DNA from: Thermomonospora catenispora
GTDB taxonomy: Bacteria > Actinomycetota > Actinomycetes > Streptosporangiales > Streptosporangiaceae
NCBI RefSeq assembly: GCF_006363815.1
Contig: NZ_RRYT01000028.1
Span: forward strand, 2,971-56,436
Reading direction: 5' to 3'
DNA: 53,466 nucleotides
Shown: piece after piece, positions 1,333-42,259 of the stretch
Layout of the letters: each line of letters begins with the position of its first letter
Position numbering within the stretch: position 1 is the stretch's first letter
The notes under the pieces: model-generated
The model's input: the letters and a program-made list of their open reading frames with translations, nothing else
Told to the model about the DNA's origin: nothing
Databases searched by the model: none
Position numbers and translations under genes: made by a program

Positions 1333-2610
1333 TCAGGAGCGCTTCACCTCGACCATGCCGATGTTGCGCTTGCCTCGGCGAAGGACCAGGAAGCGGCCGT
1401 GCAGAAGGTCGTCGGCGGTCGGGGTCGCGTCCTCGGAGAGGACCTTGGCGTTGTTGAGGTAGGCTCCGCCCTGGGCGATGGTGCGCCGGGCCTCGGATTT
1501 GCTCTTGCACAGGCCCGAGGCGGCGAGGAGGTCGGCGACGGACGGGAGGTCGCCGGGCGGGATCTCCGCGCGCGGCACCTCTGCGAGCGCCGCGGCGAGG
1601 GTGCGTTCGTCGAGCTCCTCCAGGGCGCCCTGGCCGAACAGGGCGCGGGAGGCGGCGATGACCTTGGCGCACTCGTCGGCGCCGTGGACGAGGGTGGTGA
1701 CCTCCTCGGCCAGGGCGCGTTGGGCGATGCGGGCCGCGGGACGCTCGGCGGACTCCTTGACCAGGTGTTCGATCTCCTCGCGCGGACGGAAGCTGAACAC
1801 CTTCAGGAGCTTCTCCACGTCCCGGTCATCGGCGTTGATCCAGAACTGGTAGAACGCGTACGGCGAGGTCAGCTCGGGGTCGAGCCAGTAGGTCTCGCCG
1901 CCGGCGGTCTTGCCGAACTTGGTCCCGTCGGCCTTGGTGAGCAGCGGAGTGGTCAGGGCGTGCGCGGTGCCGCCCTCGGCCCGGCGGATCAGGTCGACGC
2001 CGGCGGTGAGGTTGCCCCACTGGTCGCTGCCGCCGGTCTGCAGCCGGCAGCCGTACCGGCGGTACAGCTCCAGGAAGTCCATCGCCTGCAGCAGCACGTA
2101 GCTGAACTCGGTGTAGCTCATGCCCGTGCTCTCCAGGCGGGTCTTCACGGTCTCGCGGGCGAGCATCCGGTTGACCGGGAAGTGCTTGCCGATGTCGCGC
2201 AGGAACTCGATCGCGGTCATCGGGCCGGTCCAGTCCAGGTTGCTCACCAGGAGCGCGCCGGTCGGGCCCTCGTCGAAGTCGAGGAACCGGGCGACCTGCC
2301 CGCGGATCCGTTCCACCCAGCCGGCGACGACCTCCGGGGAGTTGAGGGTGCGCTCGGCGCTCTTTCCGCTGGGGTCGCCGATCAGCCCGGTGGCGCCGCC
2401 GACCAGGCCGATCGGACGGTGTCCGGCCAGCTGGAAGCGGCGCAGGGTGAGGATCTGGATGAGGTTGCCCAGGTGCAGGCTGGGCGCGGTGGGGTCGAAT
2501 CCGCAATAGAGGGTGACCGGCCCCGCGGCGAGCAGCGCCCGCAGTTCGTCCAGGTCGGTGGACTGCGCGATCAGGTCGCGCCACGCGAGATCCTCAAGGA
2601 CGTCGGTCAC
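1333..2610 (-). CDS. tyrS: Tyrosyl-tRNA synthetase
   Basis: Class I synthetase that charges tRNA-Tyr in the cytoplasm. The protein shows the TyrRS N-terminus ([10 protein letters not shown]), a HIGH-type motif as HLGN after CGFDPTAPS, the tyrosine pocket and dimer region ([12 protein letters not shown]), a KMSKS-type loop as KFGKT, and a C-terminal S4 RNA-binding domain ([13 protein letters not shown]). The frame is open from a GTG at 2661, but the GTG at 2610 follows GAGGGAG and gives 425 residues, the usual length, so I prefer it. It is monocistronic as far as can be seen. The strong leftward promoter at 154-189 lies downstream and is independent of it. Confidence 0.95.
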
Positions 2611-2698
2611 GGTCTCCCTCGTCTTCCGCCATTGCTCTTCTGGGCTTTCGGGTGCGCCCACCAGGGTGCCCGATGGTCGCCGCCCACGGTAACGATAT

Positions 2699-3089
2699 TC
2701 ACCGCCCGCCGGTGAAGTAGCGGGCGGGGACGTACACCTCGTGTCCTGAGGTGAAGCGGACGCGGACTCCGGCCTGTTCCCAGGTCGCGTCCCGCAGTTC
2801 GGGGGCCTCCCCGGTGAAGTCCACTTTCACCGTGTGTCCGTAGGACGCCTTCGGGTCCCGCCCGGTGTAGAGCAGGTACTCCCGATGCCGGCCGAGGATC
2901 CAGCTCCGGTGCTGGACGATCACCGCGTAGTGGCGGGAGTCGTCGGGGTAGCGCACGGTCGCGGGCTGCTGGAGCGTGCGGCCGAGCGTCCGGGCCCGGT
3001 GCAGGCCGCCGTCCGCCGCCGTCCGCCGCCGTCAGACAGCCCGCGGCGAGCGCACCGGCGAGCGTCCTGGCGATGGCGCCGCCTTCCAT
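2699..3089 (-). pseudogene. Small putative lipoprotein, reading frame broken by a 10-bp tandem duplication
   Basis: The ATG at 3089, preceded by AGGAG, opens a lipoprotein-like signal with a lipobox LAAGC (Cys18). The remaining domain (RYPDDSRHYAVIVQHRSWIL onward, to 2699) is in another frame. Between them lie two perfect tandem copies of the 10-mer GGCGGCGGAC (minus strand; 3030-3011). Removing one copy joins the frames exactly and gives a protein of about 126 residues. I do not recognise the family; the C-terminal part is rich in aromatic and charged residues. Alternatives are a sequencing error, a real pseudogene, slippage-controlled expression, or translation of only the downstream part from a GTG at 2956. 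Confidence 0.55.
3011..3030. repeat. Two perfect 10-bp tandem repeats inside the lipoprotein gene
   Basis: The plus strand reads GTCCGCCGCC twice, with a degenerate third copy (GCAGGCCGCC) on the left and a GTC on the right. The unit is not a multiple of three, so gain or loss of one copy shifts the frame of the overlapping gene. Confidence 0.8.
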
Positions 3090-3245
3090 GAGGCCGGGTC
3101 TCCTGTCCTTCGATCGTCCTCCGATGTCCTGCGCGGCCTCGGCGCTCGGCTGCGGCGTCGGCTCACGTCCCGCCGTCTCCGCCCGGTCCGCACGGGACGT
3201 TCCTCTCCTGTCTCCTCCTGCGACGGCGGGGAGGAGAGGGAGGTT

Positions 3246-3875
3246 TCAATCCGTGCGGGCGCTCCTGCGACGGCGCGGGACGTGCATGCGGTACTGCGAG
3301 ACGCTCGGTTCCCCGTCGATCCAAAAGCGCCAGGGGACCTCCTTGGCCGCGCTCACCCCGACGCGCGGGCCCGTCCGCACCCGGGCGGGGTCCACCGCGT
3401 CGCCGGCCAGGATGCGCAGCGGAGAGTCCGGATCGCAGGCGTCCAGGCCGTTGTGGGCGCGGTCGATGGCCAGGGCCTGGCACAGGCGGGCGGGACCCCG
3501 GGCGAGGTCGCGGACGGTGGAGCGCGGGCGGCGCGCCCGGGCCAGTTCCAGGCCGTCGACGATCTCGCCGGCGCGCAGCAGCACGGCCGAGGCGGTGCCG
3601 TCGGGGCCGCAGACCAGGTTCATGCAGAAGTGCATGCCGTAGGTGAAGTAGACGTAGGCGTGCCCCGGCGGTCCCCACATGACGGCGTTGCGGGCGGTGC
3701 GCCCCCGGTAGGAGTGCGACGCGGGGTCCTTCGGACCGGCGTACGCCTCGACCTCGGTGAGGCGCACGGCGACCTCGCCCTCCGCGGTGCGGTGGGCGAG
3801 GACCTGCCCGAGCAGGGCGGGGGCGACTTCCTCCACGGGACGGTCGAAGAAGTCCCGGTCGAGCAGATCGCTCAC
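3246..3875 (-). CDS. DNA-3-methyladenine glycosylase (AAG/MPG family)
   Basis: Base-excision repair glycosylase that removes alkylated purines. The 209-residue protein has the family's Glu in RLTEVEAY, the core [20 protein letters not shown] and the [11 protein letters not shown] segment; the length is normal. It is encoded 20 bases after argH in the same direction, so it is probably read from the arg transcript. A GTG at 3899 overlapping the argH stop (GTGA) is in frame and would add eight residues. I chose 3875 because the protein then begins with the family-typical [11 protein letters not shown] and has a GGGA eight bases upstream. Confidence 0.9.
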
Positions 3876-3895
3876 GGCCGCCGTCCCGGCACGGT

Positions 3896-5461
<1,566 letters not shown>

Positions 5462-9069: not shown

Positions 9070-11275
<2,206 letters not shown>

Positions 11276-11277
11276 TC

Positions 11278-11312
11278 AGCAAGAGTATGCATAGGAGTGG
11301 ATGATTATTCAA
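11278..11312 (-). promoter_or_regulatory. argC promoter overlapped by a pair of ARG boxes
   Basis: On the minus strand, TTGAAT (11312-11307) and CATACT (11289-11284) are spaced 17 bases. Box 1, TGAATAATCATCCA (11311-11298), matches the TGAAT-N4-ATTCA-type consensus at 9 of 10 half-site positions. Box 2, TGCATACTCTTGCT (11291-11278), is weaker. The box starts are 20 bases apart, two helical turns, as for ArgR hexamer sites. Bound ArgR would cover both -35 and -10. Confidence 0.75.
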
Positions 11313-11330
11313 GACCGGGTGAGAGATATC

Positions 11331-11777
11331 TCAGCCTGTGGCCGATTTGCCCAGCTCATCTCCGTATATCCATCCAACCCAGCGCTGCACCTGGACCGTG
11401 ATCGCCGGTCCCTGGGGAGGGCGCTCGCGGTACTGGGGATACCGCTCCGCCAGCAGGTCCGCCGTCCGCCGCAGCTCACGGGGGTCGTCGGTGACGCGGG
11501 CCCGCCCGTCGGCGCGCACCCACCACAACCGGCTCCAGTCGTCCTCGTAGTGGTCGGCCAGCACGCTCACCCAGGGGTTGCCGACGATGTTGCGCAACCG
11601 TTTGAGGTGCCGCGTCCGTTTGGGCTTGTGGTCGACCGCCATGCGGATCAGGTCGCCGTCCAGGGCGAACGTCGTCACCACCAGGTGCGGCCGACCGCGC
11701 TCGTCCACGGTCGCCAGCCGCACCACCGGTGCGGCGGCCAGCCTGCGTCGCGCCTCCCCGGCCTCGAGCCCTGGCAT
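11331..11777 (-). CDS. PPOX-class split-barrel enzyme, probably F420- or FMN-dependent (Rv0121-like)
   Basis: A 148-residue split beta-barrel protein of the pyridoxamine-phosphate-oxidase class. The core VVRLATVDERGRPHLV, the DHKPKRTRHLKRLRNI stretch and HYEDDWSRLWWVRADG match the group related to mycobacterial Rv0121, thought to use F420; the substrate is unknown. ATG 11777 with GAGGAG upstream is preferred to an in-frame ATG at 11831 that lacks a binding site. It lies about 75 bases downstream of the structured RNA (12121-11853) and could share its transcript. Confidence 0.8.
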   Translation of the reverse strand: MPGLEAGEARRRLAAAPVVRLATVDERGRPHLVVTTFALDGDLIRMAVDHKPKRTRHLKRLRNIVGNPWVSVLADHYEDDWSRLWWVRADGRARVTDDPRELRRTADLLAERYPQYRERPPQGPAITVQVQRWVGWIYGDELGKSATG

Positions 11778-11852
11778 GCCGCTCCTCGCATCCGCCTCCG
11801 GTTCCGGCATACCCGTGCACGGCCGAAACATGGTGGAGCCCGAGGGTCTGCC

Positions 11853-12121
11853 CTACCCCCGGGCCCCGGCGTGCCGCCCAATTGCGCGCACCGATGTTCT
11901 GCGGACGCGGATCAGTTTCAGACCGCCCGCCTTACCTTTAGGCCACCGCGCCGCGAGAGGCGCGGACCGGAGTCGAACCGGCATGGACGACGGCGTCCGT
12001 CCGCGTCGACGCATCGGCGCTCGGCGACGAATGTTGAATCTGGAGCGATAGCCTGAATCTGGCGGCGCCGCCCCTCCGGCAGAACTCCTGCCGATCAGGG
12101 ACGCGCGGACGCCGGGGGTAG
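11853..12121 (-). ncRNA. Structured RNA containing a circularly permuted tRNA-like fold
   Basis: Read on the minus strand, a 10-bp helix closes the element (12121-12112 with 11862-11853). Inside are a hairpin (12093-12088 with 12082-12077) and helices 12066-12061 with 11878-11873, 12020-12012 with 11896-11888 (9 bp, one G-U) and 12007-12000 with 11911-11904 (8 bp). At the tip lie tRNA parts in permuted order: T-arm (GCCGG-TTCGACT-CCGGT, 11982-11966), acceptor strand CCGCGCC (11965-11959), 6-base loop, acceptor strand GGCGCGG (11952-11946), TG, then a D-arm (GCCT-AAAGGTA-AGGC, 11943-11929) and an anticodon-like stem (11997-11992 with 11927-11921). All tRNA-like stems pair; the acceptor is 7 of 7. 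The fold is capped, so it cannot be aminoacylated. Bacterial Y RNAs (YrlA) have this topology; no Ro60 gene is in the window. Confidence 0.65.
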
Positions 12122-12137
12122 ATCCGGCCTCCGCCTC

Positions 12138-12185
12138 TCACACGCCTTTCATCAGCCTGAGCCTCAGTTTCAACTTGCGCTCCAT
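12138..12185 (-). CDS. 15-residue basic leader peptide upstream of the structured RNA
   Basis: ATG 12185 has GGAGGGGG (12196-12189) upstream and encodes MERKLKLRLRLMKGV followed by TGA. The peptide alternates Lys/Arg with Leu. Its Shine-Dalgarno lies in the 3' arm of a hairpin (12212-12205 with 12198-12191), so initiation should depend on that hairpin opening. It ends 17 bases before the closing helix of the structured RNA. Translation is inferred only from binding site and start; it may be a regulatory leader. Confidence 0.45.
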   Translation of the reverse strand: MERKLKLRLRLMKGV

Positions 12186-12190
12186 GCGCC

Positions 12191-12212
12191 CCCTCCGCGC
12201 AAAGGCGGAGGG
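12191..12212. promoter_or_regulatory. Hairpin masking the ribosome-binding site of the leader peptide
   Basis: Arms CCCTCCGC (12191-12198) and GCGGAGGG (12205-12212) pair perfectly around a 6-base loop. On the minus strand the arm nearer the ATG contains the Shine-Dalgarno. On the plus strand the stem is followed by GTCTTGATTCT, so it could also terminate plus-strand transcripts. Confidence 0.55.
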
Positions 12213-12219
12213 CGTCTTG

Positions 12220-12248
12220 ATTCTATCCCTTCCCGCCGGGCTTTTCAG
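12220..12248 (-). promoter_or_regulatory. Promoter for the leader peptide and structured RNA
   Basis: Minus-strand CTGAAA (12248-12243) and TAGAAT (12225-12220) are spaced 17 bases; the -10 matches the consensus at 5 of 6 positions. The start would be near 12213, exactly at the base of the hairpin that masks the leader-peptide binding site, so the RNA need not depend on read-through from the upstream gene. Confidence 0.55.
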
Positions 12249-12281: not shown

Positions 12282-13013
12282 TCACTGGAACAGATAGTCG
12301 AAAATGACCTGACCCACGCGCTGGTCGGCGACCTCGGTGCCGTTGGCCTCCTCACGGGCGAACTTGACGGCGTCCTGCAGCTTCTCCAGACGGTCGAGCA
12401 GTTCGTTGACCCGCTTGGCGGGCAGCGCGCCGGAGAACTTCACGGTGGTCCAGTAGCCCACCGGCACGTCCTCGTAGTAGACCTCGACCTGAGCGGGGTG
12501 ATGCTCGGTGGCCTCGGCCTTGACGTGGTTGCGCGGCACCTTCTTGGTCTTGACCGTGCGGACCGGCTCGGTGCGCCACACGTCGGTGGAGGCGTCATAG
12601 GTCCACGACTCGGCGGCATCCAGCACCGGCAACTGCCGGACGAAAGCCTGCAACTCCTTCAACTGCTTTTCCAGGAAAAGCAGATAGGTGACCGGGACGT
12701 CGCGCAGCAGCGGGCGGCCCTCCACGACGACGTCGGCCTTGGCGACGCAATTGGTCCAATCCTTGGTGGCGGTGACGTCGAACAGGCGGGTCAGCGTGGC
12801 GGCGACCTGACGCAGCACCTCCTCGGCCTTCACCTGGACCCGGGTGGACTCGGGCGGGAGCTGCTCGCCGTCCTCGTCCTTGGGCTGATAGGTGCGCGAG
12901 ATGCCGGACAGCGCCGGCAGCTTCTGCAGCGTCTGATTCGCCTGGGCGAGCTCTTGGACGGCCTTGCTCTTGACGCCCTTCTCGACGGCGATGATCTGGT
13001 TGAGCTTCGCCAT
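12282..13013 (-). CDS. Uncharacterised protein, DUF7873-like
   Basis: A 243-residue soluble protein with no signal or membrane segment. I recall near-identical actinobacterial proteins starting MAKLNQIIAVEKGVKSK and containing ISRTYQPKDEDGEQLPPEST, TRLFDVTATKDW and YEDVPVGYWTTVKFSG; I associate them with DUF7873, function unknown. Charged, coiled-coil-like stretches occur near residues 15-30 and 205-230. ATG 13013 has GGGGGA six bases upstream; an extended -10 (TGCTAGGTT, at 13054-13046) may be its promoter. It is transcribed toward the structured RNA, starting about 160 bases before it, which suggests but does not prove a functional link. Confidence 0.7.
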   Translation of the reverse strand: MAKLNQIIAVEKGVKSKAVQELAQANQTLQKLPALSGISRTYQPKDEDGEQLPPESTRVQVKAEEVLRQVAATLTRLFDVTATKDWTNCVAKADVVVEGRPLLRDVPVTYLLFLEKQLKELQAFVRQLPVLDAAESWTYDASTDVWRTEPVRTVKTKKVPRNHVKAEATEHHPAQVEVYYEDVPVGYWTTVKFSGALPAKRVNELLDRLEKLQDAVKFAREEANGTEVADQRVGQVIFDYLFQ

Positions 13014-13090
13014 GGTCGGTCCCCCTGTTCCTTCCGTCGGTGACCAACCTAGCAGCACAAGATCGACTTCTCATGACATTTACCGACCGG

Positions 13091-41467: not shown

Positions 41468-42259
41468 GTGGCGGGTAAGGACCGCAAGAAGCAGCTGGCC
41501 CGGCAGCGCTATCTGCGCCAGCAGGCGCTCCGGGAGGCCGAGGCCAAGAAGGCTCGTCGGATCCGGGTGCTCGGATCCGTGGTGGCGGTCGCCCTCGTGG
41601 CCGGAGGCGGCTTCGGCATCGTCTCGCTGGTCGGCGGGGACGACGACGCCAAGGCCGATCCGGCGGCGAGCTCCCCGCCGCCCGAGGACGGCAAGCCCAA
41701 GCAGGAGATCGCCCTGCAGAAGGTGAGCGTCTCCGGAAAGAAGGGCGGCGGCACCGCCAAGTGCACGTACCCGGACTCCGACGACGACCGGGGCGCCCCC
41801 AAGGGCCTGGGCAAGCCGCCCTCCACGGCCGCCTACGACGGCAAGGTCACCGCCACCGTCAAGACCAGCCTCGGCGACGTGAAGATCGAGATGGACGCCG
41901 ACAAGGCGCCGTGCACCGTCAACTCGTTCGCGCACCTGGCCAAGAAGAAGTTCTTCGAGAACGTCAAGTGCCACCGGCTCACCACCGCGGAGACGTTGAA
42001 GGTGCTGCAGTGCGGCGACCCGACCGGCACCGGCAGCGGCGGGCCGGGCTACCGTTTCGCCAACGAGAACACCAAGGGGGCGAAGTACACCCGCGGGGTC
42101 GTCGCCATGGCGCACAGCATGCAGCCCGACAGCAACGGCAGTCAGTTCTTCATCGTCTACGGCGACTCGGAGCTGCCGGCCGACTATACGATCTTCGGAA
42201 AGATCACGTCGGGGATGGACGTCATCGACAAGGTGGCCCAAGCCGGGGTGGCAGCGTAA
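41468..42259 (+). CDS. Membrane-anchored cyclophilin-type peptidyl-prolyl isomerase
   Basis: The 263-residue protein has a basic N-terminus, one transmembrane helix (about 33-56), a Lys/Gly/Pro-rich linker and a cyclophilin domain: VTATVKTSLGDVKIEMDAD, NGSQFFIVYGDSELP and YTIFGKITSGMDVIDKV. It ends at GVAA with two TAA codons. Most relatives continue about 15 residues to a final DGKPKxxVxI strand that closes the barrel, so the C-terminus looks shortened. GTG 41468 has GAGGAGG upstream. It is divergent from the hydrolase gene. Confidence 0.92.
   Translation: MAGKDRKKQLARQRYLRQQALREAEAKKARRIRVLGSVVAVALVAGGGFGIVSLVGGDDDAKADPAASSPPPEDGKPKQEIALQKVSVSGKKGGGTAKCTYPDSDDDRGAPKGLGKPPSTAAYDGKVTATVKTSLGDVKIEMDADKAPCTVNSFAHLAKKKFFENVKCHRLTTAETLKVLQCGDPTGTGSGGPGYRFANENTKGAKYTRGVVAMAHSMQPDSNGSQFFIVYGDSELPADYTIFGKITSGMDVIDKVAQAGVAA

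Follow-up and report, generated by a model that had tools for sequence, protein, structure and literature searches.

YrlA, a bacterial Y RNA, carries a tRNA-like part in circularly permuted order on a long stem; the stem holds the Ro60 protein, and the tRNA-like part is both a binding site for PNPase and a target of tRNA-modifying enzymes (PMC8394870, cited portion), and the RNA has been proposed as an inhibitor of an anticodon nuclease (PMC7790460, cited portion). In circularly permuted (two-piece) transfer-messenger RNA (tmRNA) the tRNA-like part is likewise encoded with its 3' half ahead of the 5' half, and a spacer parts the two acceptor strands; algae and archaea have permuted tRNA genes with the same order of halves and an intervening sequence at the acceptor end (PMC3978253, cited portion). 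Here we describe an element of this kind on the minus strand of a 53,466-nucleotide (nt) stretch of Thermomonospora catenispora DNA (contig NZ_RRYT01000028.1, positions 2,971 to 56,436; hereafter "the window"), next to a gene for a DUF7873 protein. GOLLD, ROOL and OLE are also phage or bacterial structured RNAs of several hundred nt, often phage-borne or protein-partnered and of obscure function; the DUF7873-linked RNA differs from them in its permuted tRNA-like modules, and neither the window nor any of 18 viral loci gave a match to one of the three at Rfam cut-offs. Gene and RNA occur as a pair across many actinobacteria and also in phages from several groups of bacteria, a pattern that suggests an RNA-protein system as yet undescribed. 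We found no described function for DUF7873, and a literature search gave no paper naming it and, as judged by titles and the beginnings of abstracts, no description of the RNA.

The permuted tRNA-like fold

The original prediction, made from the window sequence alone, was of a structured RNA at 12121-11853 in which a T-arm, a capped acceptor stem of 7 base pairs (bp) and a D-arm follow one another in permuted order, as in the tRNA-mimic module of YrlA. These parts are present at 11982-11929 (minus strand), the two acceptor strands are fully complementary, and the topology is supported by comparison with relatives. The likeness to YrlA was also rightly seen, as the Rfam YrlA model (RF02553) aligns over its full length with positions 12006-11902 (32.7 bits, E 3.4e-5, below the cut-off of 69 bits). 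No stretch of the window scores at or above the cut-off of any Rfam family, and ARAGORN reports no tRNA in it. The folding energy of the element is unremarkable (z -1.97, 7 of 100 shuffled sequences being as stable) and unpersuasive by itself, so relatives were compared.

Most bacterial relatives carry two permuted modules, M1 and, downstream of it, M2; the module of the window is M2. A covariance model, R1, was built from M2 and its flanking helices with 63 seed sequences, of which one row (locus L084) is an M1 included by mistake. Pairing of the T-arm, acceptor and D-arm was required in selecting sequences, as were the T-loop pattern and the D-loop GG, and A14 was favoured; positions U8, 15 and 48 were not used. 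In the 63-sequence alignment 95.6% of cells pair, against a shuffled mean of 69.9% and 40-48% when the columns are slid by 1-3, and 27 of the 29 pairs have two-sided changes (shuffle mean 22.9). The M2 acceptor has them in 7/7 pairs, although its pairing was a selection criterion. Because arm pairing was required, the independent evidence is that of the two helices flanking M2, neither of which was used in selection: all 13 of their pairs show two-sided changes, 6/6 in the outer helix (94.4% of cells paired) and 7/7 in the inner helix (88.6%). As to the tRNA tertiary core, all 134 distinct M2 modules (these counts are of sequences, not of independent events) have U8 and 133 have A14, and at the Levitt pair 15-48 there are 115 with A-U, 16 with G-C and three with a mismatch (A-C twice, G-G once); among 107 M1 modules U8 is found in 106, and 15-48 is A-U in 93, G-C in two and something else in 12. 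The permuted tRNA-like fold is thus real, and the strong evidence for it is comparative. As to what lies around the module, the flanking helices in the consensus of the relatives correspond to 12019-12014/11894-11889 and 12007-12002/11909-11904 (Table 1), the long closing stem of the single-sequence fold is absent from the consensus of the relatives, and the conserved parts extend further than predicted, over about 380 nt (~12213-11835).

Association with DUF7873 in bacteria and phages

Of 394 genomes sampled from the window's class 37 have DUF7873 (one by fragments only), and it was also detected in at least 485 of 590 candidate named-genome stretches, in 225 viral-contig stretches and in four plasmid-collection records; the best 80 of the named-genome stretches and the best 80 of the 225 viral stretches were kept for analysis. 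We note that Deinobacterium chartae, a control genome, has matches to both TROVE and DUF7873, so that bacterial DUF7873 is not limited to actinobacteria. The 119 bacterial loci comprise 107 chosen by DUF7873 alone, 11 chosen by the RNA, and the window, and an R1 match adjoins DUF7873 in every one of them (107/107 of those chosen by the gene). The score is 106.2 bits in the window, at least 69.6 in 38/38 further bacterial loci (15 outside the seed) and 120-163 in 80/80 named-genome loci (64 outside the seed). A scanner for permuted modules finds at least one downstream of DUF7873 in 118 of the 119 bacterial and 67 of the 80 viral loci, and in 5/357 bacterial and 3/240 viral dinucleotide-shuffled controls. 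When R1 was run over 296 genomes of the class, all 24 with a full-length match of at least 69 bits proved to carry DUF7873 nearby on the same contig, and the other matches reach at most 56.6 bits among those listed. For one carrier (G003) the RNA was found in locus L083 at 116.7 bits, and the genome with DUF7873 fragments only (G236) gave no R1 match.

The order pheT, ABC-F, DUF7873, RNA, PPOX, argC, argJ is common to the window and four genomes of its genus. There the element lies directly upstream of PPOX, as a cis-acting leader of that gene, the main alternative in the original prediction, would lie. Within flanks of 1.5-5 kb at 121 DUF7873 loci, however, ABC-F is present at 17, pheT at 11, argC at eight and PPOX at seven, and nothing is constant except DUF7873; all seven PPOX cases are from the window's genus, and three are duplicates of others. 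With the synteny confined to one genus the element is not a PPOX leader; that reading is refuted as a general explanation, and we give it a negligible probability.

In the window 68 nt separate the end of the DUF7873 gene from the 5' hairpin of the element and 299 nt separate it from the T-arm, and in the 18 genomes where gene and RNA both lie on the plus strand the R1 match begins 155-427 nt past the end of the DUF7873 match. This position, and termination in a GC-rich hairpin, would suit a 3'-untranslated regulatory element of the DUF7873 mRNA, through which the protein or a tRNA-binding factor controls expression of the gene itself. We regard this as unlikely, since the RNA is on the strand opposite DUF7873 in locus L278 and upstream of it in L284, since a promoter-like site precedes the RNA in the window and an annotated promoter is positioned just before it in Klebsiella phage FBKp24, and since its size and double-module build go beyond those of usual 3' elements. 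The opposite-strand and upstream copies, together with the promoter-like sites, favour a separate, trans-acting RNA. From the sigma-70-like site of the window transcription might start near 12213, and TAGNAT-like words stand at the same position in loci L081, L082 and L127.

An R1 match is present in 77 of the 80 viral-contig loci and reaches at least 58 bits in 67 (57 outside the seed); these 67 exceed every R1 score seen away from DUF7873, and the ten weaker matches (43-56 bits) are in the range reached by unrelated tRNA-like loci. DUF7873 is also present in 73 phage records, of Arthrobacter, Gordonia, Rhodococcus, Pseudanabaena, Microcoleus, Klebsiella, Serratia, Rhizobium and Vibrio phages. 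Nine of these named phages were examined, and seven have an R1 match at most ~650 nt downstream of DUF7873 (39.5-105.6 bits, three below 52); of the other two, one (L330) has a match of 25.3 bits and one (L331) has none near DUF7873 and one of 34.9 bits two kilobases on. ARAGORN calls tRNA or tmRNA genes in 37 of 60 viral loci scanned, a few single or doubtful calls adjoining the RNA itself, and in Arthrobacter phage Mimi, Gordonia phage Phendrix, Rhodococcus phage NiceHouse and Rhizobium phage RHph_Y65 DUF7873 lies inside a tRNA array. Such placement of the gene-RNA pair fits a role in the supply of translation components by the phage. In Klebsiella phage vB_KpM_FBKp24 an annotated tRNA-Sup-TTA (L328, 5027-5106) overlaps the RNA that accompanies DUF7873 and has probably been misannotated; ACCA follows both module-like stretches of this locus.

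Parts of the element and its paired modules

Table 1. Features at the DUF7873 locus of the window, in 5' to 3' order of the minus strand
Feature	Position	Strand	Basis and remarks
DUF7873 gene (Pfam PF25283), 258-amino-acid open reading frame, proposed protein partner	12282-13058	-	401.3 bits, cut-off 27; profile 1-242 of 244
Putative sigma-70-like promoter site, CTGAAA-17-TAGAAT	12220-12248	-	Consensus match, 0.1 expected in shuffles; weak evidence
5' hairpin	12188-12213	-	Relatives carry a similar hairpin
Repeated CUGA-like element	12149-12174	-	Alignments; seen in bacterial and phage copies
Two GC-rich hairpins at the position of M1 in relatives	12070-12134	-	Minimum free energy fold; no R1 match
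Middle element between M1 and M2, strongly conserved	12028-12061	-	Comparison with relatives
M2 outer helix, 5' strand (6 bp)	12014-12019	-	Partner 11889-11894
M2 inner helix, 5' strand	12002-12007	-	Partner 11904-11909; 6 of 7 consensus pairs form in the window
M2 T-arm, GCCGG-TTCGACT-CCGGT	11966-11982	-	Sequence and alignment; loop TTCGACT
M2 acceptor stem	11946-11965	-	3' strand 11959-11965; cap loop 11953-11958, TCTCGC (6 nt); 5' strand 11946-11952
M2 D-arm, GCCT-AAAGGTA-AGGC	11929-11943	-	A14, A15, G18-G19 and A21 present
M2 inner helix, 3' strand	11904-11909	-	Alignment with relatives
M2 outer helix, 3' strand	11889-11894	-	Alignment with relatives
Conserved GCGCAATTGGGCGGC strand	11873-11887	-	Alignments
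GC-rich 3' hairpin	11835-11867	-	Fold and alignments; same place in relatives

The CUGA-like element may pair with the middle element, weak covariation being seen for this pairing, and the GC-rich 3' hairpin is likely the 3' end of the RNA. The loop of this hairpin is UGG-UA-like in many aligned relatives, which is beyond the needs of a plain terminator, and it has diverged in the window. A second R1 match in the window, at 41966-42049 on the minus strand (13 bits, E 0.26), is probably due to chance.

As judged by R1, M1 lies upstream of M2 in at least 85 of the 118 bacterial loci other than the window, and no M1 is recognisable in the window or its near relative L082. The D-arm of M1 has a 3-bp stem and a loop of ~11 nt, the type also found in tRNA-Leu, and that of M2 has a 4-bp stem. 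The discriminator position is mostly A in M1 (53/63 bacterial, 29/47 viral) and mostly G or U in M2 (104/105 bacterial, 32/37 viral). That two modules with different acceptors and D-arms are maintained together in bacteria and phages argues against the element being a permuted gene for a normal tRNA or what is left of tandem tRNA genes, as does the lack of an anticodon loop: the module strands continue into long conserved helices at the point where a joined cloverleaf would have that loop. ARAGORN's failure to find a tRNA in the window points the same way. This origin has in its favour that many viral copies lie near tRNA genes and that tandem identical tRNAs can mimic a module, as do the tRNA-Asn genes of locus L103 (3969-4119, minus strand; 36-54 bits with YrlA and R1), and on balance we consider it highly improbable. 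Tandem identical tRNAs are a source of false matches and perhaps hint at how permuted modules arose.

In tRNA the acceptor is followed by NCCA. The cap loop begins with NCCA in 69 of 252 distinct modules (42/84 viral, 27/168 bacterial; CCA background 1.7%) and in one of 18 comparison modules, which are mostly Ro60-linked; among the tRNAs of the viral loci CCA is encoded in 65 of 308, more rarely than in the viral module caps. The cap loop is 4-24 nt long (24 being the limit of the scanner), and U precedes the acceptor 5' strand in 57 of 84 viral modules. Judged from sequence, these caps, loop lengths and the preceding U fit excision of the spacer, a step that RNase P and tRNase Z have been proposed to carry out in permuted pre-tRNAs (PMC3978253, cited portion). 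A bare N-C start is, however, common to both sets (235/252 modules and 13/18 comparison modules); it is therefore less informative, and this lowered our confidence in excision from about even to somewhat less than that.

Relation to Ro60 and a proposed role

The original prediction saw no Ro60 gene, which is correct for the window; elsewhere in its genome, on contig C25, there is a TROVE/Ro60 gene, the DUF7873 RNA being on C30. Just upstream of that gene (C25 of G000, 10691-12066; L101, TROVE gene 2610-4217) are two YrlA-like modules of 52.1 and 38 bits, and paired YrlA-like modules recur at the Ro60 loci of relatives. The TROVE/Ro60 locus, with modules of its own, is a system separate from the DUF7873 RNA. 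The YrlA cut-off of 69 bits was passed in none of 60 genomes; the best Ro60-linked RNA reached 57.4 bits, and since the Ro60-linked RNAs of relatives also fall below it the cut-off does not discriminate. Matches to YrlA of 28.3-35.8 bits occur in four of six other DUF7873 loci, with none in L160 and L180 at E 0.05. A strong YrlA-like module (L100, 3977-4043, minus strand; 50.8 bits) lies on contig C7 of genome G012, a contig other than that of its TROVE match.

The window element could still be an orphan YrlA-family RNA acting in trans with a Ro60 protein encoded elsewhere, for the YrlA model spans its whole module, its genome has a TROVE gene, and among the loci fetched 10 of 12 relatives with DUF7873 and the RNA have a TROVE match. 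Against this, genomes G013 and G031, both rated 100% complete, have DUF7873 and the RNA and no TROVE match; the constant neighbour is DUF7873; and with R1 the Ro60-linked modules reach 54.2 bits at most, which is to be expected when the model comes from the other group. We therefore find a Ro60 partnership very unlikely; of the initial Y RNA reading, the module topology and the comparison with the YrlA module stand. In both RNAs a long stem bears the T-arm, capped acceptor and D-arm in permuted order, the gene for a known or proposed protein partner is adjacent, and modules are often paired. The two differ in that the constant neighbour here is DUF7873, not TROVE, in another conserved internal loop, in an M1 with a 3-bp D-stem, in commoner NCCA caps, and in the frequency of DUF7873 on viral contigs and its presence in several phages. 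Two-piece tmRNA differs from the DUF7873 RNA, which has a full D-arm with G18G19 and often two modules; no tmRNA (RF00023) was found in the window at the gathering score or by ARAGORN, a tag reading frame not being sought separately. From the permuted tRNA genes the RNA is set apart by its missing anticodon arm, its conserved extra helices and its hosts, bacteria and phages. It uses the same kind of mimicry as YrlA, without the Ro60 linkage or the features of tmRNA and permuted tRNA genes.

On these comparisons of sequence, the element is probably a trans-acting structured RNA of ~380 nt that partners the DUF7873 protein, whose gene lies just upstream. The M2 core of the RNA is the top half of a permuted tRNA (T-arm and acceptor 3' strand, cap or spacer, acceptor 5' strand, D-arm); two conserved helices carry it, and a conserved internal loop, AUCGA / CUUAAACG, stands in the place of the anticodon arm. 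DUF7873 likely binds the RNA, its contacts probably being with the helices and internal loops that lie beyond the tRNA-like part, and the modules would bind one or more tRNA-handling enzymes, for which RNase P, RNase Z, the CCA-adding enzyme or a tRNA-cutting nuclease are the best candidates. By analogy with YrlA, the protein is expected on the helices and the tRNA enzyme on the modules. In NCCA-capped copies the spacer is perhaps cut out, which would leave tRNA-like 5' and CCA ends. The likeliest purpose, offered tentatively, would be to protect or redirect tRNA metabolism, the RNA serving as decoy, guard or scaffold. In a further, rather unlikely version, RNase P and RNase Z would excise the spacer of each permuted tRNA, of which there are one or two, and leave the RNA nicked but with genuine CCA acceptor ends; with DUF7873 it would form a ribonucleoprotein that can be aminoacylated or that captures tRNA enzymes; M1, with mostly A73 and a Leu-like D-arm, could suit a synthetase that ignores the anticodon.

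If the partnership is true, DUF7873 gains a partner in a specific RNA, and permuted RNAs that mimic tRNA are not limited to the Y RNAs of Ro60 and to tmRNA. The phage copies in tRNA arrays suggest a part in the contest over translation, for example in protection from tRNA-cutting defences. The processing of permuted tRNA-like RNAs by bacteria and phages becomes testable, and should the modules prove to be processed and charged, they would represent a new kind of RNA.
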